Of a stretch of 49,000 nucleotides of DNA, positions 9,587-46,854 are shown piece by piece. A program made the translations under genes and the position numbers. The first letter of the stretch is position 1. Every line of letters begins with the position of its first letter. The DNA lies in the NCBI GenBank assembly GCA_030536755.1, contig JAUNPJ010000020.1:1-49000 (forward strand). Direction: 5' to 3'. This DNA is from Eubacteriales bacterium (lineage in GTDB: Bacteria; Bacillota; Clostridia; Lachnospirales; Lachnospiraceae). Below the pieces are notes generated by a model. It searched no databases, was not told the origin of the DNA, and saw only the letters and a list, made by a program, of their open reading frames with translations.

Positions 9587-11572
9587 ATGAAATCATCAAT
9601 GAACAAAATCAGTTCTTTTCTGGCAGCCTTTGCTCTGTCGCTTCTGTTCGGTGCCTGCTGCCTGAAAATTCCAGTCCTGTCAGAAGCAATTTCTGCCAGA
9701 GGCAACATCAATCTGCTCACCTACGCAATGGTGATCATCCTTTTCTGCCTGCTGTTTCTTCTGTTTTACGCAGTTACAAACCGTTTATCAAAAGATACCA
9801 CGGCAGATTCCTGCATACCGGCACTCATTGTCTGCGGCATCCTGCTTGCAGTCACTGCTGTATTTTTCTTTTTTATGTTTCAGCTTGAGGGAAATATCTA
9901 CGGCGGAGTCACAGACCGGTATATCTGGCATAAACTGCCGATCTGGCTGGTGATCTTTTTTCTGGCAGGGGAGTTTCTTTTCTGTTTTCTGTGCATCCGA
10001 AAAGACAGCATCCATCTTCCAGACAGCGGCATGTACCTTCTTTACAGTATGTTCACCGTACTCATCGGCTATACATACTACACGCCGTCCATTTTTGTGC
10101 GCGGGGCATCTGACCGTCTTCATGCCAACGCCTATTATAATTCCATCTATAATGTGCTCCACGGGGCGCCTTATACCGAATACACCACCTGCATTTACGG
10201 ACACTACGGAATTCTTTATCGCCTTCCCATGAAACTTCTCGGCGGAGATTTTGCAGATTTCATTCTGCTCAACTCCATTTTAGGCGCATTATGTTTTCTT
10301 GCCATGTTTTTGGCACTGCATGTTACTGTTCAGAACAATCTGCTGCGTTTCCTGGGAACGATTGCCATGACATTCCCGATTCTCGCTATGAGAGGTGGTT
10401 ACTACTGGCAGCTTTGGCCGCACCGTATTCTGTTTATGAGCCTGATGATCTTCTTTGCTGCAGTTTGTGTGCGTTTCGGCTGGTTCAACTGGTTTACCTG
10501 CATCCTCGGATACATCATTGCTCTGGCAGGCATTGTCTGGAACACGGAAAGCGGACTGTTCTGCGCCATCGCCTGGGCAGGCTTTTGGATTCTGAGATCT
10601 CTCTGCATCCATTGGTGGCGTTTTCCGAAGATCCTTCTGCAGGCACTCATCCATGTGCTCTGCATTGTTCTCTGCTTCTTCGGCGCCTACGGTATTGTAA
10701 ATCTATACAATGGTTTGCATGGAGGAAGCGCAAATTCCATCCGTGAATTTCTGTTTCCGCTTATGACCGATTCCTATATGACGGACTTACTACGGGTAGA
10801 TTTACCGGAATTTCCAAGCGCGTATCTGCCTGTGCTGTTTCTGCTGTTTTTGGCAGCCGCATGGGGCATGTCCTACATGAATCTGATCAACAAACACAAG
10901 CAGTACAGCCTGACCGCTTTTCTGCTTCCCTGTTTTGCCTTCTTCACCAGTGTTCTGACTCTTGGACAGATGTCTTATTTTATGAACCGGGCAGCTTACC
11001 ACAATCTGGATATCTGCCATCTTCCGGCAATTCTGCTGCTTTGTCTGCTGTCTGAACACGGAATGGACTGCATCCGTGATTTCCGTTGGAAAAAACGCGG
11101 TCAATATCAGCCGGCCCAGATTTTTAAGGCAGCATTCAGTGTGGTAAACGTATTCCTTCTGCTGACACTTGCCACAGGCACAGCCGTCCAGTATGGCTAC
11201 AATGCGGATCTGAAAACACAGTTTCACAACAAACAGGAGCTGACGGATTTTGCAGCGAATATCGCAGCAAATGTTCCGAAGGACACCTATGCGTTCGGCA
11301 TCGGCACGGCCGAGATCTACAGCATCCTGCGCTGGGATACCCAGTGCTACACGCTTGATTTTGCTGATCTGTCTGTGCGCCCGCAGGTGGCAGATTACGT
11401 AGTCAGCGATATAAAAGACAAACATGTGGAAGAATTTCTTGTGGGAGAAAATACGATGAAAAAGTTTAAAACATTCTCCCCGGAAAATTACGAGTGGATC
11501 CGAAAAAATTATAAACGCGCAAAGGAATTTGAATTCCAAGGTGCCGTGTTCGAATACTATATCACAAAATAA
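9587..11572 (+). CDS. Polytopic membrane protein, possible GT-C glycosyltransferase
   Basis: A 661-aa integral membrane protein with roughly 12 hydrophobic helices and a soluble C-terminal part (about 560-661). A large loop near residues 170-210 holds RGASDRLHANAYYNSIYNVL followed by an aromatic YGHYGILYR segment; an acidic residue in such a loop, followed by a G-rich aromatic stretch, is the pattern of GT-C glycosyltransferases that use lipid-linked sugars. That assignment is inference from topology. It is divergent from glf and followed 28 nt later by two more membrane-protein genes, which suggests a role in surface glycan assembly. SD AGGAGG ends 10 nt before the ATG. Confidence 0.6.
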   Translation: MKSSMNKISSFLAAFALSLLFGACCLKIPVLSEAISARGNINLLTYAMVIILFCLLFLLFYAVTNRLSKDTTADSCIPALIVCGILLAVTAVFFFFMFQLEGNIYGGVTDRYIWHKLPIWLVIFFLAGEFLFCFLCIRKDSIHLPDSGMYLLYSMFTVLIGYTYYTPSIFVRGASDRLHANAYYNSIYNVLHGAPYTEYTTCIYGHYGILYRLPMKLLGGDFADFILLNSILGALCFLAMFLALHVTVQNNLLRFLGTIAMTFPILAMRGGYYWQLWPHRILFMSLMIFFAAVCVRFGWFNWFTCILGYIIALAGIVWNTESGLFCAIAWAGFWILRSLCIHWWRFPKILLQALIHVLCIVLCFFGAYGIVNLYNGLHGGSANSIREFLFPLMTDSYMTDLLRVDLPEFPSAYLPVLFLLFLAAAWGMSYMNLINKHKQYSLTAFLLPCFAFFTSVLTLGQMSYFMNRAAYHNLDICHLPAILLLCLLSEHGMDCIRDFRWKKRGQYQPAQIFKAAFSVVNVFLLLTLATGTAVQYGYNADLKTQFHNKQELTDFAANIAANVPKDTYAFGIGTAEIYSILRWDTQCYTLDFADLSVRPQVADYVVSDIKDKHVEEFLVGENTMKKFKTFSPENYEWIRKNYKRAKEFEFQGAVFEYYITK

Positions 11573-13500: not shown

Positions 13501-13510
13501 AGCCCATAAA

Positions 13511-13537
13511 GTATCTGTGAGGGTACTGAACAGATAC
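13511..13537 (+). repeat. Solo 27-nt hairpin repeat
   Basis: An 8-bp stem (GTATCTGT/ACAGATAC) with an 11-nt loop. It is the exact reverse complement of 15178-15204, the terminal hairpin of the 143-nt element upstream of the symporter gene. The two copies thus bracket the symporter gene in opposite orientation. The rest of the element is absent here. Confidence 0.85.
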
Positions 13538-13542
13538 CCCAT

Positions 13543-13599
13543 AAAAAATAAGGATATTGCAATAACCATATTTTGTTATCTGCAATATCCTTATTTTTT
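13543..13599. terminator. Bidirectional intrinsic terminator
   Basis: Arms 13543-13561 and 13581-13599 form a perfect 19-bp stem whose outer part is A-tract/T-tract, with a further ATAAC/GTTAT inner stem. It sits between the convergent membrane-protein operon and the symporter gene and can end both transcripts. Confidence 0.9.
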
Positions 13600-13605
13600 A
13601 TATTT

Positions 13606-15147
13606 TTATTTTCCTGCCGCTACCTGATCAAACTCATCCAGGATATCCTTTGTCGGTGCCTTAGTAGCAAGACTAAAGACAACGATCATCAAAGTGCTGA
13701 GTGCAAATCCCACTACCAGGGAATATAAACCAGTCGCTGCTCCCAATGTCTGTCCGCCCACAAGCGGTATGTAGTCCCAGATAATCACGGCAAGACCACC
13801 GGATGCAATACCGGCAATCGCACCTGCCAGGTTTGTTCTTCTCCAGTACAGAGACAGAAGCACAGTCGGTCCAAATGCAGAACCAAGACCAGCCCAGGCA
13901 TTGGATACCAGTCCCATGATACTGCTGTTCGGATTCCATGCGATCAGAAACGCCAGAAGCGCTACCACAATAACCGTCAGACGGCTGACACGAAGAATTT
14001 TCTTGCTGTCAGCATCGCGGTCAACAAAATTGTGATATAAGTCTTCTGCCACGGAAGAAGCTGTAACCAGAAGCTGGGAATCTGCTGTGGACATAATCGC
14101 AGCCAGAATACCGCACAGGAACAGTCCTCCAATAAACGGCAGGCTGAAATCCACCGTAAAGATCTTGGTGATCATCTCAATAAATACACTCTCTGCCGAA
14201 ACAGCTCCCTCTGTTCCAAGTACAGTCGGGAACAGGTATGCTCTTCCCAGAATACCAATGACGCATGCAGCTGCCAGTGAAAGTGCCACCCAGACAATTG
14301 CGATTGCCCTTGATTTTTTCAATTCCTTTTCATCTCTGACAGCCATAAAGCGAGTCAGGATATGAGGCATTCCGCAATATCCAAGTCCCCATGCAAGCTG
14401 AGAGATGATATCAATGGCACGATACGGCTCTCCTCCATTGCAGAACAGGCTCAGATATGCGGAAGAACCACCAGCCACACCACTCTGGTCAAGAATGACA
14501 TGAACATCCTGTCCGCCTAATATTGCCCATGCAACAATCGGTACTGCCAGAAGGCCGATGAGCATCAGACTTCCCTGAATAAAGTCAGTCACACATACAG
14601 CCATAAATCCACCCATAAAGGTGTATACCAGGATAACTCCGGCACCAACTGCCAGTGCAACATGATAATCCAGGCCAAATACAGAATTAAACAATTTTCC
14701 GCCGGCAGCCAGAGCAGATGCTGTGTACACCAGGAAAAACACCACAATCACAATAGATGACACAAACAGAAGAATTCTTTTCTTATCGCGGAAACGATTT
14801 TCAAAATAAGCCGGCAACGTCAGCGAATTGTTTGCCACGATTGTATATCGGCGCAAACGGCCGGAAATAAACAGCCAGTTAAAAACAGTTCCCAAAAATA
14901 ATCCAATGGCAATCCATGCCTGTCCGGTTCCCAGTGAATAAACGGCACCAGGAAGTCCCATCAGCAGCCAGCCGCTCATATCAGATGCCTGTGCGGACAA
15001 TGCTGCTACCCAGCCGCTGAGTCCGCGGCCTCCCAGAAAGTAATCTTCTGAGCTTGTAGTAGATTTCATATAGATGGCACCAATGACGATCATCATCAGA
15101 AGATACGCCACAAATGCCGCGAAAATCCATAACGTTGTTGTACTCAC
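13606..15147 (-). CDS. putP: Sodium/proline-type symporter (SSS family)
   Basis: A 513-aa sodium:solute symporter of the PutP group, importing proline (or a related solute) with Na+. It has about 13 membrane helices. The family signature around residues 40-70 (GGRGLSGWVAALSAQASDMS then GWLLMGLPG) is intact, as is the TADSQLLV segment (about 358-365) that contributes to the Na+ site. The start is GTG (15145-15147) with GAGGAGG 7 nt upstream. It forms a monocistronic unit with the structured element at 15178-15320 just upstream and a strong terminator downstream. Proline as substrate is the usual assignment, not proven here; other SSS substrates are possible. Confidence 0.9.
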   Translation of the reverse strand: MSTTTLWIFAAFVAYLLMMIVIGAIYMKSTTSSEDYFLGGRGLSGWVAALSAQASDMSGWLLMGLPGAVYSLGTGQAWIAIGLFLGTVFNWLFISGRLRRYTIVANNSLTLPAYFENRFRDKKRILLFVSSIVIVVFFLVYTASALAAGGKLFNSVFGLDYHVALAVGAGVILVYTFMGGFMAVCVTDFIQGSLMLIGLLAVPIVAWAILGGQDVHVILDQSGVAGGSSAYLSLFCNGGEPYRAIDIISQLAWGLGYCGMPHILTRFMAVRDEKELKKSRAIAIVWVALSLAAACVIGILGRAYLFPTVLGTEGAVSAESVFIEMITKIFTVDFSLPFIGGLFLCGILAAIMSTADSQLLVTASSVAEDLYHNFVDRDADSKKILRVSRLTVIVVALLAFLIAWNPNSSIMGLVSNAWAGLGSAFGPTVLLSLYWRRTNLAGAIAGIASGGLAVIIWDYIPLVGGQTLGAATGLYSLVVGFALSTLMIVVFSLATKAPTKDILDEFDQVAAGK

Positions 15148-15177
15148 GTATTCTCCTCCTCAATTTAAAGTGTATTC

Positions 15178-15320
15178 GTATCTGTTCAGTACCCTCACAG
15201 ATACGAGCCAAAATCCATGAAAAATCATCTTTGATGATGGGATTTTGGCTTGTATGTCTCGGGATTTTCATGCAAAATGCATGAAAACACCTCGCGGGAT
15301 ATTACCTGCTGAACAGTTAC
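15178..15320 (-). repeat. Structured 143-nt element, copy A (symporter leader)
   Basis: Ends carry 12-nt inverted terminal sequences differing at one position (CTGAACAGTTAC at 15309-15320 versus GTATCTGTTCAG at 15178-15189). Inside are three hairpins: 15178-15204 (8 bp), 15206-15250 (11-bp outer stem AGCCAAAATCC plus ATCATC/GATGAT inner stem) and 15265-15287 (9 bp, TTTTCATGC/GCATGAAAA). The single-stranded segments TGTATGTCTCGGGA and ACACCTCGCGGGATA are identical in copy B. On the minus strand it ends 17 nt before the symporter SD. Class (leader RNA versus miniature mobile element) is unresolved; the promoter for this gene is not clear. Confidence 0.8.
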
Positions 15321-15351
15321 ATGTATTCCTATACTTTACCATGATACAGAG

Positions 15352-15388
15352 AAAAAAACAACCTCGAAAGTGAAATTCACCTCCGAGG
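15352..15388 (-). terminator. Terminator of the ClC-exoA-GH13-DUF5662 operon
   Basis: On the minus strand, CCTCG (15384-15388) pairs with CGAGG (15362-15366) around an AGGTGAA/TTCACTT inner stem, followed by seven T residues (15352-15358). It lies 8 nt after the DUF5662 stop. Confidence 0.75.
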
Positions 15389-15395
15389 CTGCTTT

Positions 15396-15944
15396 TTATT
15401 TTCTTTTTTTCAAATAAACATGCTTAATATAAGCCAACGTCTTTTCTTCTCCTTTATCGGCAAGCATATGCAGCAATGCCTCCAGATCACGGCTGGTCTC
15501 CCTGTGAATGAACCACAGCCGGTCTTTATTTTTCATAAAATACTCATAAGGAGCACGGTCCGTATAAGCATCGTCTCCCAGATAATTTCTGGAAGCACTG
15601 ATGCGGTCCATGACCATCTCAGCTACATATTTTCTGGGCATTTTCGCTCCGTTGATCACATGTTCCTTGTCTTCCAGAGAATAATCTACCCAGTATTCAA
15701 AATGATGCCTGTTTCTGCCTTTATGATGCAGCCATGACAATGAAACACCTGTATGTTCCCGCTCTGCATTGTTTGGGCTTCTGTCGCCCTGATAATATTT
15801 ACATCCGACCAGAAATTCTACCGGCGAGTATTTTGACAGATCATGAAGCAGGCCCTGTTTGTACAGGCCTACACGAAAGCAGTACTTCATAACTAAAAGT
15901 TTGTGTCTGGTAATTGTTTTAAAGTGTTTCCATGGATGCATCAT
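15396..15944 (-). CDS. DUF5662 family protein
   Basis: A 182-aa protein that I recognise as DUF5662, an uncharacterised family. The helical N-terminus (MMHPWKHFKTITRHKLLV) leads to GLLHDLSKYSPVEF at about 35-48, where His-Asp resembles an HD-type metal site, and to a second conserved stretch HHKGRNRHHFEYWVDY (about 87-102). Hydrolase activity is only suggested by this His-rich pattern. The frame is open far upstream, but the ATG at 15944 (or 15941) has AGGAGA close by and gives the family N-terminus. It overlaps the end of the GH13 gene by 26 nt, so the two are translationally linked. Confidence 0.75.
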   Translation of the reverse strand: MMHPWKHFKTITRHKLLVMKYCFRVGLYKQGLLHDLSKYSPVEFLVGCKYYQGDRSPNNAEREHTGVSLSWLHHKGRNRHHFEYWVDYSLEDKEHVINGAKMPRKYVAEMVMDRISASRNYLGDDAYTDRAPYEYFMKNKDRLWFIHRETSRDLEALLHMLADKGEEKTLAYIKHVYLKKRK

Positions 15945-17799
15945 TCTTCTCCTGTCGTCCAATAAATATACTGATGGAACGGGGTGCAACCTCAACCATC
16001 TTCTGATTTTCCAGTTCCTCTTCCTCTTTGAGGAAATATTCTTCCTCCGGTCCTGATATGGAATTAAAAATCCGGCACCATTTCTGCTTCTTGATCCTTG
16101 GAAGTGCAAATTCATGCGGCTCCCAGTGGAAATTGTAAGCGATATAGATAAAGTCATCACTCTGTCCATCCTCTTTCTGCGCATACAGGCCACAGTACAT
16201 CATGCCAATGTGATAGCTGACGTTGTCATAGGAAGCATACCATGCTCTGCTGCTGTGATATGACAGATCCGGATAGCCAAACGATTTGTAATCCATCACC
16301 CGAAGTTCCTTCTCCGGATGCAGAATCGGGTGCTGTTTGCGAAATGCGATCACATCTTTGACAAAATCAATCATTTCTTTATTTTTACCGAAGCTTCTCC
16401 AGTCCACCCAGCCCGTTTCATTATCCTGACAATACGCATTGTTATTTCCCTGCTGGGAATTGCCGAATTCATCTCCGCCATAAATCATCGGTGTTCCCTG
16501 ACTCAAAAGCAGCAGCAGAAAGGCATTTCTCATCTGCTGTTCACGCAGCTTGCGCACAGACAGCCTGCGGCTTGGTCCTTCCACTCCGCAGTTCCAGGAA
16601 AAATTATAAGAGTTTCCGTCCTGATTATCCTCCCCGTTTGCCTCATTATGCTTGGCATCATAGGAAACCAGATCCATCAAGGTAAAGCCATCCTGATTGG
16701 TGATATAATTGATCGTGCCGTGTGCAGCAGGATTGGAACGCATATGCCTGACAGCAGCATTGAGGGAATCCTCATCACTCTTCAGGAATCGGCGAATATC
16801 GTATTTGAAGCCTTCATTACAGACTGCAGCATTGCGTGTACTCTGCCTTTTCCCCATATCCGGCAGACTGTAAAACATCAGCTTGGCTTTACACAAAAGT
16901 GGATCCTTGCAAAGCATTTCCACCGGAACTCCATCTCCGAGCAGATGGAAGCCATCGACATGGTAGGTAAGATACCAGTGATGCAGCACCTGCAATACAA
17001 GTAAGTGATGCGTATCCTTCGGGAAATAAAATTCCAGAATACATTCTATTCCGGCTTTGTGCAGTGCTTTTACCATATCACGAAACTCTTTGATGGCATC
17101 TCTGCCCGCGCAGTATGCTGGTTTTGGAGCAAAATAATTGCCTTTTGTGTAGCCCCAGAAATTTGTCTTCAGCTTATCCTTCATCTTCATCGCATATTTC
17201 AAAGGCATATTTTGCGGAAAGATCACTTCATCAAAATCATACACCGGCATCAGTTCCAGAGAAGTAATTCCCAGTTCCTGAAAATACGGAATCTTTTCAA
17301 TGATTCCGGCAAACGTTCCTTTTTTTCGCACTTTGGAATTTTTCTGCATCGTATAGCCGCGCACATGAATCTTGTATAAAATTGTATCCGAATACGGATA
17401 TTCAGGTCTTCTGTCTTCCTCCCAGTCATACTTATTCTCATCAAATCCACAGCGGATACTGTGAGGATTGCTGCTGTCGGTTACGGTTCCAAAGCCTGAG
17501 CGCCCGACAATTTTTGCAGCGGCCGGATCGTGAACGACTGTTTCTCCAACCTGATAATTGTATTCATACCTTTCCGCTTTAAAATCAGGCAGAAAAACAG
17601 AAGCCATCTGTCCTGTAAAATACGAAGAGTCTATCACAATCTCTTCTTCCGGCTGCTCCTGGCCTTTTTTGTACAACAGCAAACGAACATCCTCTTCTGC
17701 GGAAAACTCCGCTGCAAAATTGTATCCGCCGGTTCTTCTGACCACGCCCAATACCCTGGGATCCCCCTGCATTACTTTCCTGTCTTTTTTCTCCGCCAT
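15919..17799 (-). CDS. GH13 alpha-amylase-fold protein, probable pseudoenzyme
   Basis: A 626-aa protein with the architecture of isoamylase/GlgX-type debranching enzymes: an N-terminal beta domain (about 10-100), a TIM barrel (about 135-440, opening with TILYKIHVRGYT) and a C-terminal beta domain. The catalytic motifs are eroded. Region I (about 253-260) reads ILEFYFPK where active enzymes have a D-x-V-x-N-H pattern; region II (281-288) reads VDGFHLLG instead of VDGFRFDL, losing the Arg and the nucleophile Asp; region III (308-315) reads MFYSLPDM where the acid/base Glu should be; region IV keeps only Asp370 (NQDGFTL). It is therefore unlikely to hydrolyse glycans and may bind or regulate glycogen. 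It lies between exoA and a DUF5662 gene. Confidence 0.8.
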   Translation of the reverse strand: MAEKKDRKVMQGDPRVLGVVRRTGGYNFAAEFSAEEDVRLLLYKKGQEQPEEEIVIDSSYFTGQMASVFLPDFKAERYEYNYQVGETVVHDPAAAKIVGRSGFGTVTDSSNPHSIRCGFDENKYDWEEDRRPEYPYSDTILYKIHVRGYTMQKNSKVRKKGTFAGIIEKIPYFQELGITSLELMPVYDFDEVIFPQNMPLKYAMKMKDKLKTNFWGYTKGNYFAPKPAYCAGRDAIKEFRDMVKALHKAGIECILEFYFPKDTHHLLVLQVLHHWYLTYHVDGFHLLGDGVPVEMLCKDPLLCKAKLMFYSLPDMGKRQSTRNAAVCNEGFKYDIRRFLKSDEDSLNAAVRHMRSNPAAHGTINYITNQDGFTLMDLVSYDAKHNEANGEDNQDGNSYNFSWNCGVEGPSRRLSVRKLREQQMRNAFLLLLLSQGTPMIYGGDEFGNSQQGNNNAYCQDNETGWVDWRSFGKNKEMIDFVKDVIAFRKQHPILHPEKELRVMDYKSFGYPDLSYHSSRAWYASYDNVSYHIGMMYCGLYAQKEDGQSDDFIYIAYNFHWEPHEFALPRIKKQKWCRIFNSISGPEEEYFLKEEEELENQKMVEVAPRSISIFIGRQEKNDASMETL

Positions 17800-17836
17800 A
17801 ATCCGACCTCCTGCTCCTTACAATATATTTTTATTT

Positions 17837-18592
17837 TTAAAAATTCATATCCAGCTCAATCGGACAATGATCCGAGCCCATGATCTGAGCGTGGATCACA
17901 TGATCCTGAAGATATTTTTCCAGACTACTGGAAATACAAAAATAGTCAATTCTCCATCCTGCATTGTTCTGCCGCGCACGAAAACGATAAGACCACCAGG
18001 TATAGGCGCCCTCTAAATCCGGATACAAATAACGGAACGTATCGATAAATCCATGATCCAGAACCTTCTGGAAACACGCTCTTTCCTCATCACTGAAGCC
18101 TGGATTCTGATGGTTGTTCTGTGGATTTTTCAGGTCGATCTCCGAAAAAGCCACATTCAGATCTCCACAGAAAATCACAGGTTTTTTCTTCTCCAGTTCC
18201 TTGAGATATGCAAGAAAATCTTTTTCCCACTGCATGCGATAAGGCAGACGTGCAAGCTCAGTCTGTGCATTCGGTGTATAGACCGTCACCAGATAAAACG
18301 CTTCGTACTCACAGGTGATCACCCGGCCTTCCTTGTCATGTTCCTCTATTCCAATGCCATAGGATACGGACAGCGGTTCCTGCTTTGTAAACACGGCTGT
18401 TCCGGAATATCCCTTTCTTCTTGCATAATTCCAATACTGGTGATACCCCGGCAATTCCAGCTTCACCTGTCCCTCCTGGCATTTGCTTTCCTGTATACAG
18501 AAAATATCTGCATCTGCTTCTTTAAAAAAGTCTTCAAAGCCTTTTTTGATACAGGCCCGAATACCATTTACGTTCCATGAGACCAGCTTCAT
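17837..18592 (-). CDS. exoA: Exodeoxyribonuclease III (AP endonuclease)
   Basis: A 251-aa Mg-dependent nuclease of the ExoIII/APE family, acting on abasic sites in base-excision repair. The metal and catalytic residues are visible: NVNG near residue 7-10, QESK with Glu34, the Tyr-containing VTVYTPNAQ stretch near 103-111, GDLNVAFSEIDL (about 143-154), and GSDHCPIELD at the C-terminus. Full length. It follows the ClC gene by 31 nt and precedes the GH13-like gene by 37 nt on the same strand, an association without an obvious functional link. Confidence 0.95.
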   Translation of the reverse strand: MKLVSWNVNGIRACIKKGFEDFFKEADADIFCIQESKCQEGQVKLELPGYHQYWNYARRKGYSGTAVFTKQEPLSVSYGIGIEEHDKEGRVITCEYEAFYLVTVYTPNAQTELARLPYRMQWEKDFLAYLKELEKKKPVIFCGDLNVAFSEIDLKNPQNNHQNPGFSDEERACFQKVLDHGFIDTFRYLYPDLEGAYTWWSYRFRARQNNAGWRIDYFCISSSLEKYLQDHVIHAQIMGSDHCPIELDMNF

Positions 18593-18623
18593 ACGTTCCT
18601 CCTAAACTGTTATTTATTATACC

Positions 18624-20189
18624 TTATTTTGATTCAGAACACAATTTATTCATTAAATCATTTACATAAGCCTGATTCTTTTCATCTGTCATGATCACCA
18701 GCATATCGCTGGCCTCCATCTTTGTGCCTCCCTTTGGCAGAAGCTCTGTCGTTCCCCTCTGGACAGCCACGATCAGGCAGTGTTTTGGCCATCCGATGTC
18801 ACTGATTTTTTTGTTTTCCAAAACAGAGCCATGCATGATCACAAACTCCTGCAGCACCCGCTCCCCGCGCATTGTTTCAGACGGTGCTTCTCTTCCTTCC
18901 AGAAGACGTTCCAGAAGGCTTTCATAAATCGGAGCAGAATGCAGAAGATTTGCCACCACATAAGCCACGATTGAAACGAGAGACAGCGACAGCATTGATC
19001 TGAGAGACCCCGTCATCTCAAAAATCAACAAAATCCCCGTCAGCGGAGCACGCACAATCGCAGAGAAAAAGCCTGCCATGGACAGACACACCACATTGTC
19101 AATATATCCGGGATCCCATCCAAGATATTGCACACCAATCGTACCATAAGAAGCACCGATCAGACTTCCCAGCACCAGCAGCGGAAAGAAAATTCCGCCT
19201 GGCGCCCCGGACCCGAAGCTGATTGCCGAAAACAGAAATTTTACGGCAAGGATCAGAAGCAGGGAACGCAAAATCCATTCACTATCTGCCGCATTTTCCA
19301 CAATCGCATGACCGCTTCCGAGTACGACGGGATATACAAAACCAAGAACACCGGCAAGCAGAAACGGAATCAGAAGTTTTCCTGTTCTGTTTAAAAATTT
19401 TGCTTTTTTAAATAAAGACTGTACAAATAATGTAAAACAATTGTAGAACGCGCCCGCAAATCCAAGCAAAACACCGAGCAGTATAATAATCCAGTAATCA
19501 TCCTGTTTGATAAAGCTTCCCATCTGAAACTGGAATACCGGCTGAAGTCCCAGAATATGGGACGATATGTAATCCGCTGCCAGCGAAGATGCCATGGCAG
19601 AAACCAGAACCGAGGACGAAAAGTTCTTATGAACTTCCTCCAGCGAAAACATAATACCTGCCAGCGGAGCGTGAAAAGCAGCCGCCAGACCGGCGCTTGC
19701 ACCGCAGGTAAGCAAAATTTTTTCTTCACTCTTGTCACATTTGAGTGCTTTGGAAACACCTTTTCCCGTCATGGAACCAAGCTGGATCGACGGACCTTCT
19801 CTTCCAAGAGACAGACCGGCAAGCAGCGACAGAAAGCCTCCCAGAAATTTAGCCGGAAGCACTTTCCACCAGGTCTGATCCAGCTTTCCTGTCATCTCTC
19901 CTTCCATCTGCGGAATACCGCTTCCCGAAATCATCGGTTCCCAGTCCAGCAGTTTTCCCACAACAAAAGCCAAAAGAATCAGAATTCCAAACCATCCTGC
20001 CATACGCAGAGGGTTTCCGCTGCAGTAATTCAAAATCATGTTCAGCCAGTCACCCGCATAGGTCAGAGCGATGCGGTAAGCCAGCACGACAAGGCCGCTG
20101 ACAATGCCCACAAGAAAACCCTTTCCTACCAGATTGACCTGATAAAGACTTTTTCTTCGCCCAATCATATGGGCTGTATCCTTTTTCAC
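18624..20189 (-). CDS. ClC family chloride channel/transporter with C-terminal TrkA-C domain
   Basis: A 521-aa ClC protein, moving Cl- (usually in exchange for H+) across the cytoplasmic membrane. The selectivity-filter motifs are intact: GSGIPQ, GREGPSIQLG (with the gating Glu) and GSGAPGGIFFPLLVLGS. After the membrane part, residues from about 440 form a soluble RCK_C/TrkA-C domain (KKISDIGWPKHCLIVAVQRG), common in regulated transporters. The start is GTG at 20187-20189 with GGAGG 7 nt upstream; a longer frame with other starts lacks an SD. It heads an operon with exoA, and the structured element copy B forms its leader. Confidence 0.9.
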   Translation of the reverse strand: MKKDTAHMIGRRKSLYQVNLVGKGFLVGIVSGLVVLAYRIALTYAGDWLNMILNYCSGNPLRMAGWFGILILLAFVVGKLLDWEPMISGSGIPQMEGEMTGKLDQTWWKVLPAKFLGGFLSLLAGLSLGREGPSIQLGSMTGKGVSKALKCDKSEEKILLTCGASAGLAAAFHAPLAGIMFSLEEVHKNFSSSVLVSAMASSLAADYISSHILGLQPVFQFQMGSFIKQDDYWIIILLGVLLGFAGAFYNCFTLFVQSLFKKAKFLNRTGKLLIPFLLAGVLGFVYPVVLGSGHAIVENAADSEWILRSLLLILAVKFLFSAISFGSGAPGGIFFPLLVLGSLIGASYGTIGVQYLGWDPGYIDNVVCLSMAGFFSAIVRAPLTGILLIFEMTGSLRSMLSLSLVSIVAYVVANLLHSAPIYESLLERLLEGREAPSETMRGERVLQEFVIMHGSVLENKKISDIGWPKHCLIVAVQRGTTELLPKGGTKMEASDMLVIMTDEKNQAYVNDLMNKLCSESK

Positions 20190-20213
20190 AATAACTCCTC
20201 CCTCAACTATTTT

Positions 20214-20356
20214 GTTACTGTTCACTCCGTTCACAGTAACTTAGCCAAAATTCATTCCAGATTGCCTTCGGCAATGGAATTTTGGCTTGTATGTCTCGGG
20301 ATTTTGGCATATTCATGCCAAAACACCTCGCGGGATAGTGCCGTGTGAACAGTAAC
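20214..20356 (-). repeat. Structured 143-nt element, copy B (ClC leader)
   Basis: Same length and plan as copy A: perfect 12-nt inverted ends (GTTACTGTTCAC at 20214-20225 and GTGAACAGTAAC at 20345-20356), a terminal 27-nt hairpin (20214-20240), a central hairpin (20243-20287; AGCCAAAATTC stem with ATTGCC/GGCAAT inner stem) and a third hairpin TTTTGGCAT/ATGCCAAAA. All stems differ from copy A in both arms while linkers are unchanged. On the minus strand it begins about 10 nt after the predicted transcription start and ends 9 nt before the SD of the ClC gene. Confidence 0.85.
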
Positions 20357-20372
20357 ACTATTTTCTTTTTTT

Positions 20373-20401
20373 ATTATACACTCCCCTTCATTTCCTTGCA
20401 A
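20373..20401 (-). promoter_or_regulatory. Promoter of the ClC operon
   Basis: TTGCAA (20396-20401) and a perfect TATAAT (20373-20378) are 17 nt apart on the minus strand, with TG just before the -10 box. Transcription should start near 20366, about 10 nt upstream of element B. Confidence 0.75.
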
Positions 20402-46798: not shown

Positions 46799-46842
46799 CA
46801 TCATTCCTTCTTTCTTTTCATTCTTGTATCTGCTCTATGGTT

Positions 46843-46854
46843 CTGAACAGTTAC
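46843..46854. repeat. Solo 12-nt end of the structured element family
   Basis: CTGAACAGTTAC is identical to the 15309-15320 end of element A, in the leader of yedF and in the same orientation relative to the downstream gene. No other part of the element is present. Chance occurrence is possible. Confidence 0.35.

Follow-up and report, generated by a model that had tools for sequence, protein, structure and literature searches.

The 49,000-nt stretch analyzed here, referred to as the window (positions 1 to 49,000 of contig JAUNPJ010000020.1, assembly GCA_030536755.1, from a Eubacteriales bacterium of the Lachnospiraceae), carries two 143-bp structured elements, A and B, each upstream of a transporter gene. 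The initial annotation of this DNA had proposed that they are either an undescribed ion- or osmolyte-responsive leader RNA or a structured mobile repeat that lands in leaders. Our analysis favors the latter: A and B represent two subfamilies of a single repeat that is dispersed in the genome, rather than a leader RNA linked to ion transport, and they are almost certainly non-autonomous miniature inverted-repeat transposable elements (MITEs) whose ends and 8-bp target duplication are common to IS66-family transposons with a transposase of about 558 aa.

Two 143-bp elements upstream of transporter genes

Element A (15178..15320, plus strand; ends GTATCTGTTCAG and CTGAACAGTTAC) lies upstream of the start of a sodium:solute symporter gene (13606..15147, minus strand; SSF by Pfam). 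Its left target-site duplication, GTGTATTC (15170..15177), is 7/8 identical to the right copy, ATGTATTC (15321..15328). Element B (20214..20356, plus strand; ends GTTACTGTTCAC and GTGAACAGTAAC) is flanked on both sides by ACTATTTT (20206..20213 and 20357..20364; 8/8), and lies between the predicted promoter and the start of a ClC-type chloride channel gene (18624..20189, minus strand; Voltage_CLC and TrkA_C by Pfam). The GTG start of this gene at 20189 was inferred by eye from the Shine-Dalgarno (SD) sequence. A promoter scan placed its predicted TTGCAA-17-TATAAT promoter at 20373..20401 on the minus strand, and the empty-site allele of a sister species (G002) has identical TTGCAA and TATAAT hexamers at the same spacing as read by eye, so the promoter is independent of the insertion.

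Much of the initial description held up, including the position, equal length and like orientation of the elements, the sequences of the stems it named, the identities of both genes, the ClC promoter and, by eye, the distances to the SD sequences (9 nt for the ClC gene and about 17 nt for the symporter gene). The linkers are likewise as written, and are predicted to pair with each other in a stem, with a bulge, at the base of hairpin three. One large stem, GCCAAAAT/ATTTTGGC, had been missed and is almost invariant between A and B. Intrinsic terminators within the elements were considered and rejected, as scans gave one site per region, each outside the elements.

Dispersed copies, target sites and facing genes

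In the genome that carries the window (G000; 3.84 Mb in 145 contigs, several of which end within MITE copies), A plus short flanks gave at least 43 matches, fragments included, with 40 of 75 first-look candidates scored. The likeness between A and B is thus not a matter of chance, since both are copies of one dispersed repeat. Full-length 143-mers number at least 29 with those of the window included, 9 of subfamily A and 20 of subfamily B, with mean identities of 99.0% and 98.5% within the subfamilies, and are, like MITEs, short, non-coding and dispersed. Partial pieces and three further places (C108, C132 and C137) stand outside this count, as does L047, which aligned over 136 of 143 nt and has no duplication at its projected end. 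The ends form terminal inverted repeats, their 12 nt being paired in 96.5% of alignment cells (47 sequences).

Direct repeats of 8 bp at the ends are perfect in 24 of the 29 copies and match at 7/8 in the other five, whereas only 9 of 812 control comparisons, pairing left and right flanks taken from different copies, reach 7/8 or better. The duplicated target sites are 74% A+T, compared with 56% A+T in the loci that trained our gene caller. Three B copies (the window copy at 20214-20356, L060 and L058) have near-identical target sites, ACTATTT(T/C/A), a hint of target preference.

The orthologous locus of G002, a sister species in the same genus, has neither A nor B; measured against the duplicated site, its insert sizes are -8 and -9. 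At the A site a single target copy, ATATATTC, is plain; around the B junction the sequence has diverged, and the single target copy is not letter-identical. A third case runs in the reverse direction, the 143-mer L248 of G002 being missing at the G000 site L076. Near the B site, a further relative (G001) bears an oppositely oriented copy from another subfamily, with no clear duplication by eye. About 80 nt away from the B site, G002 bears a 27-mer between perfect 8-bp repeats, at a position that is empty in the window. Counting B itself, the region upstream of the ClC gene was probably hit three independent times, judging from these alleles.

We then considered the genes that face the copies, using a home-made gene caller that missed some genes. 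The gaps holding the 29 copies comprise 13 tandem, 10 divergent and one convergent; one copy lies over a called gene start, and four have no called neighbor on one side. Divergent gaps are seemingly over-represented: they hold 10 of 24 copies with two called neighbors but make up 20% of the intergenic bases of the loci sampled. Such a bias would be in line with insertion into promoter regions rich in A+T. Among the 33 gene starts that face a copy within 400 nt, 16 have the same and 17 the opposite orientation. Only three encode ClC or sodium-solute symporters by Pfam (one SSF and two Voltage_CLC, the second of the latter facing copy L068). The others include further transporters (an ABC permease, ThiW and AI-2E), regulators (LysR, LacI and GntR) and a mixture of flavin reductase, histidine kinase, topoisomerase, DNA polymerase I, aminotransferases, RibD, QueH and others; two of the 33 gave no Pfam match at 1e-5.

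These observations bear directly on the proposal of a riboswitch-like leader RNA family that responds to ions or osmolytes and controls transporter genes in cis. Such an RNA would account for the stable fold and the two-sided stem changes described below, for the position of B between the predicted promoter and the ClC SD sequence, and for the second Voltage_CLC gene facing a copy. We nevertheless consider it extremely improbable, given the target duplications and empty sites, the even orientation and mixed functions of the facing genes, the absence of the element upstream of both the ClC and the symporter gene in G002, and the different, oppositely oriented insertion near the B site in G001. 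In addition, Rfam yielded no gathering-score match in the window, only sub-threshold ones, and a known RNA family was rejected on this ground. In 18 loci of relatives, the six Rfam matches at gathering score were tRNAs, Clostridiales-1 and COG2827 RNA. The COG2827 RNA matches lie close to MITE matches in two genomes (L273 1673-1755 and L266 2062-2146), and in L266 the match overlaps one end of a model match that is itself weak.

IS66-family transposons with MITE-type ends

IS66 transposase genes were sought with PF03050 in G000 and four relatives, three of which gave matches. MITE-type ends bound four of the 15 IS66 loci examined: L120 (2258 bp, GTTACTGTTCACAGGT at both ends), L121 (GTTACTGTTCAA at both ends, one base off at position 12), L123 (2358 bp, ends GTTACTGTTCACACCC and GTTACTGTTCAGACGC, 8-bp duplication GCCGGAAT) and L125 (GTTACTGTTCACACCC at both ends, with the transposase match in two pieces and a left end that coincides with a contig edge, precluding assessment of its duplication). 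The terminal GTTACTGTTCAC of B recurs at both ends of L120 and L125 and at one end of L123, the other end of which reads GTTACTGTTCAG, and the 3' end of B is identical to L123 and L125 over 14 nt. The ends of a fifth locus, L127, are GTTACTTTTCAC, one base off. L120, L121 and L123 score above the PF03050 cut-off, and open frames with MITE-type ends were found in G002, in the same genus as G000.

PMC11946415 describes 8-bp direct repeats at IS66 insertions and IS66 ends that start with GTAAGCG, and PMC3281130 tabulates two IS66 elements with an 8-bp duplication. The elements studied here share with this family the 8-bp target duplication, ends beginning GT(A/T)A and, in relatives, a DDE_Tnp_IS66 transposase located between such ends. 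They differ in being gene-less and 143 nt long, in having only about 12-14 terminal nt in common with the full-size insertion sequences, and in ending with GTTACTGTTCAC rather than GTAAGCG. Together, the dispersed copies with 8-bp duplications, the empty sites in the sister species and the IS66-type ends identify A and B as MITEs, bearing out the suggestion of a structured mobile repeat that lands in leaders. Their mover is probably an IS66-type transposase, putative and borrowed.

Several observations weigh against this assignment. An intact IS66 partner was not found in G000: PF03050 matched four pieces on two contigs, the sequence retrieved there showed no MITE-type ends, and a search of G000 with the L120 protein at 1e-60 was negative. 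The pieces were rejected as partners for this lack of MITE-type ends and because tblastn with the L120 protein, at 1e-3, gave no match; the partner is accordingly missing, unassembled or lost. Beyond the ends, no likeness was found between the interiors of A or B and four IS66 elements. L120 and L121 are without a target duplication, and none was seen by eye for L127. When the L120 protein was searched against 200 Lachnospiraceae genomes at 1e-60, eight matched, of which four (G077, G083, G130 and G176) are among the genomes matched by the MITE model described below and four are not, including G095 with L125. Finally, L120 scores 153.8 bits with the NCBIfam IS66 equivalog, the cut-off of which is 180. 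As candidate autonomous elements, two pairs of end motifs that face each other, spanning 3.2 kb each, were also tried and rejected: the pair on C23 (L084) encloses putative sugar-acid catabolism genes, as judged by eye, and its ends belong to two separate small copies, and in the window pair the motif at 10322 falls within a reading frame.

Repetitive extragenic palindromes (REPs) go with RAYT Y1 transposases; they are not known to have an 8-bp duplication, and Y1 transposition is not known to make one. REPIN/REP palindromes (PMC3116915) resemble our elements in being short, intergenic, multicopy hairpins, and a REP-like element moved by a Y1 transposase (IS200/IS605-like or RAYT) acting on single-stranded hairpins would explain these features. 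It is hard to reconcile with the constant 8-bp target duplications and with terminal inverted repeats held in common with DDE transposase elements, and we give it very little credence. IS-derived bacterial MITEs offer a closer likeness, since MITECca01 (IS982-type, Cardinium; PMC9769881) and MITEAba12 (PMC6382973) are reportedly also short, non-coding, multicopy and mostly intergenic, with terminal inverted repeats. The elements studied here differ in keeping a multi-hairpin interior with two-sided stem changes across many genera; MITECca01 is reported from one Cardinium strain only. No published description of our element was recognized in the literature searched, the coverage of which leaves out most subscription journals.

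Folded interior, short forms and spread

RNA folding of A and B, on both strands, gave z-scores of -6.6 to -9.0 against dinucleotide shuffles, and single-strand DNA folding of the plus strand gave -8.6 and -7.9 for the two elements. For alignment, 82 elements (29 from G000 and 53 named ones, with lengths of 136-146 and duplications of at least 5/8) were reduced to 64 distinct rows and split into 47 type I rows (alignment A1) and 17 others (A2), six A-type rows being assigned by hand. The pattern used to gather the named rows required fixed linkers, so that part of the linker conservation in A1 and A2 follows from how these rows were selected. Over the three hairpins and the bulged basal stem, 98.1% of A1 cells are paired, compared with 90.6% in shuffles. 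Changes on both sides occur in 16 of 43 pairs, a value matched by one of 500 shuffles, and in 170 cells versus 51 in shuffles; further pair types, at 25, are fewer than in shuffles (29.3). Two-sided changes affect 3 of 12 pairs in the inverted ends, a number also attained in 182 of 500 shuffles. The inner arm of hairpin one tracks the 5' end at position 4 (seven double changes, two unpaired), whereas the far 3' end does not (no double changes, eight unpaired).

A covariance model built from A1 found matches at 1e-5 in 73 of 397 Lachnospiraceae genomes and 64 of 334 genera, with at most eight candidates scored per genome under strict filters. Of 33 matches checked among the 39 that were aligned, 24 have a duplication of 7/8 or better when the ends may shift by up to 3 nt, and 21 without a shift. 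The linker pattern, among the matches listed, occurs in Blautia, Oliverpabstia and Hominisplanchenecus, and in bins named Lachnospiraceae, Eubacteriales, Eubacterium sp. and Clostridia. From the best 80 of at least 99 stretches, 65 of 82 linker-pattern matches could be delimited (17 could not), and 40 of these 65 have perfect and nine have 7/8 duplications. A search of plasmids gave no match to the element. Matches to B (87-98% identity over 32-97% of the query) were seen in seven unannotated human fecal 'Bacteriophage sp.' scaffolds (MT839053.1 3364-3518, our L283, and six others), for which host contamination and phage carriage are both possible.

The 39 aligned model matches (38 distinct; alignment A3) are paired in 94.3% of cells and show changes on both sides in 32 of 43 pairs, a number reached by none of 500 shuffles; having been fitted to the structure of the model, A3 gives counts that lean towards that structure. 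Selection on one RNA strand should leave G-U cells commoner than A-C cells, yet this is not so in the hairpins outside the basal stem, where G-U and A-C number 5 and 15 in A1 and 14 and 20 in A3. In the basal stem the corresponding numbers are 85 and 8 in A1, mostly at two near-fixed wobble positions, and 27 and 5 in A3; in the paired ends of A1 they are 17 and 10, with a single position accounting for all 17. Only the basal stem could hint at a role of the plus strand. By eye, hairpins two and three each exist in at least two dissimilar versions, and thus seem to be exchanged as whole units. The two-sided changes therefore fit DNA-level or concerted change of the arms at least as well as selection on RNA.

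It is against this background that we assessed whether a structured RNA or single-stranded DNA contained in the MITE serves the element itself, with its fold under selection, for instance as a landing pad for a transposase or a host factor or by damping harm to nearby genes. The breadth of the model matches across the Lachnospiraceae, the pairing and two-sided changes in A3 and the G-U excess in its basal stem all speak for such a function. Conversely, the G-U and A-C counts in the other hairpins do not favor RNA, entire hairpins seem to be replaced at a time, the counts from A3 lean towards the model, further pair types in A1 fall below the shuffles, and the orientation to genes is even. On balance, we consider this function rather unlikely.

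Shorter forms accompany the full-length MITEs. In the window, a 27-nt form of subfamily A consisting of the 5' terminal hairpin only (13511..13537, minus strand; corresponding to L230 1712-1738) is flanked by CCCATAAA at 13503-13510 and 13538-13545, and a probable degenerate 29-nt form, GTATCTG...CAGTTAC (46826..46854, plus strand), was recognized by eye between TCATTCTT and AAATTCTT, which are equal at 6/8 positions. Solo 27-, 18- and 45-46-mers with 8-bp duplications occur in G000, and 27-mers also in relatives. Among the delimited short forms, 11 of fifteen 27-mers and three of five 18-mers have perfect duplications, delimiting having admitted only flanks of at least 7/8 (five of nine 18-nt palindromes passed). 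One orthologous site with the same flanks holds a 143-mer in G002 (L030) and a 46-mer in G000 (L089), which makes that 46-mer an internal deletion; truncated copies were found in two further orthologous pairs (L026/L048 and L052/L017). Inspection by eye suggests that the 27- and 18-mers could be derived in like manner, through loss of the DNA between ACAGTAAC repeats and between repeats of TTCAC.

Alternatively, the 18- and 27-nt palindromes may themselves be mobile, independently of the 143-mer, in keeping with their perfect duplications, pre-filtered as these are, and with the G002 27-mer at a position where the window is empty. We find this improbable, as their sizes appear derivable from the 143-mer, one 46-mer is a deletion at an orthologous site, and the 18-nt terminal-hairpin form is also present inside longer copies (L085 and L134).

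Some further remnants were seen in G000. A 55-nt element with perfect 8-bp flanks (L104 3974-4028) has an interior that by eye resembles the third-hairpin version of L275, L277 and L282, suggesting that G000 may once have carried that subfamily. A lone 12-nt end, GTTACTGTTCAC, lies by eye between two copies of TCCGATTC (L106 3973-3984) and is perhaps an extreme deletion remnant. L084 (3213-3702) and L108 (3597-4373) share another, distinct repeat, at least about 500 bp long and with 93% identity over 491 bp, in which an internally deleted A-type MITE end is found; L108 also has a 53-bp inverted copy of the repeat end.

In the mechanism we propose, an IS66-type transposase would bind GTTACTGTTCAC-type ends and move the 143-mer, inserting it via an 8-bp staggered cut, mainly into AT-rich intergenic DNA, so that many copies would land in upstream regions. 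After insertion, hairpin-aided deletions between short direct repeats would leave remnants of 46, 27 and 18 nt that retain the duplication, as seen for one 46-mer only. The folded shape is conserved surprisingly well between genera, and this cross-genus hairpin architecture may owe its persistence to selection acting on the nucleic acid that moves, to concerted renewal of the hairpin arms, or to both. Tentatively, the element may be a family-wide, long-lived DNA parasite of IS66 transposases, gene-less and built of three hairpins. Selection across dozens of Lachnospiraceae genera would then act on its fold more than on its sequence, and its folded single strand, DNA or RNA, would act in its own life cycle; we see this as possible, though the odds are against it.

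A tempting 'new riboswitch' reading is thus replaced by that of a mobile element, with the caution that changes in both arms of a stem, when seen between copies from a single genome, are no proof of a regulatory RNA. The family offers a widespread test bed, in 73 of 397 genomes, for why some MITEs retain complex hairpins, and the insertion polymorphisms upstream of the ClC and symporter genes could show effects on expression in gut commensals.

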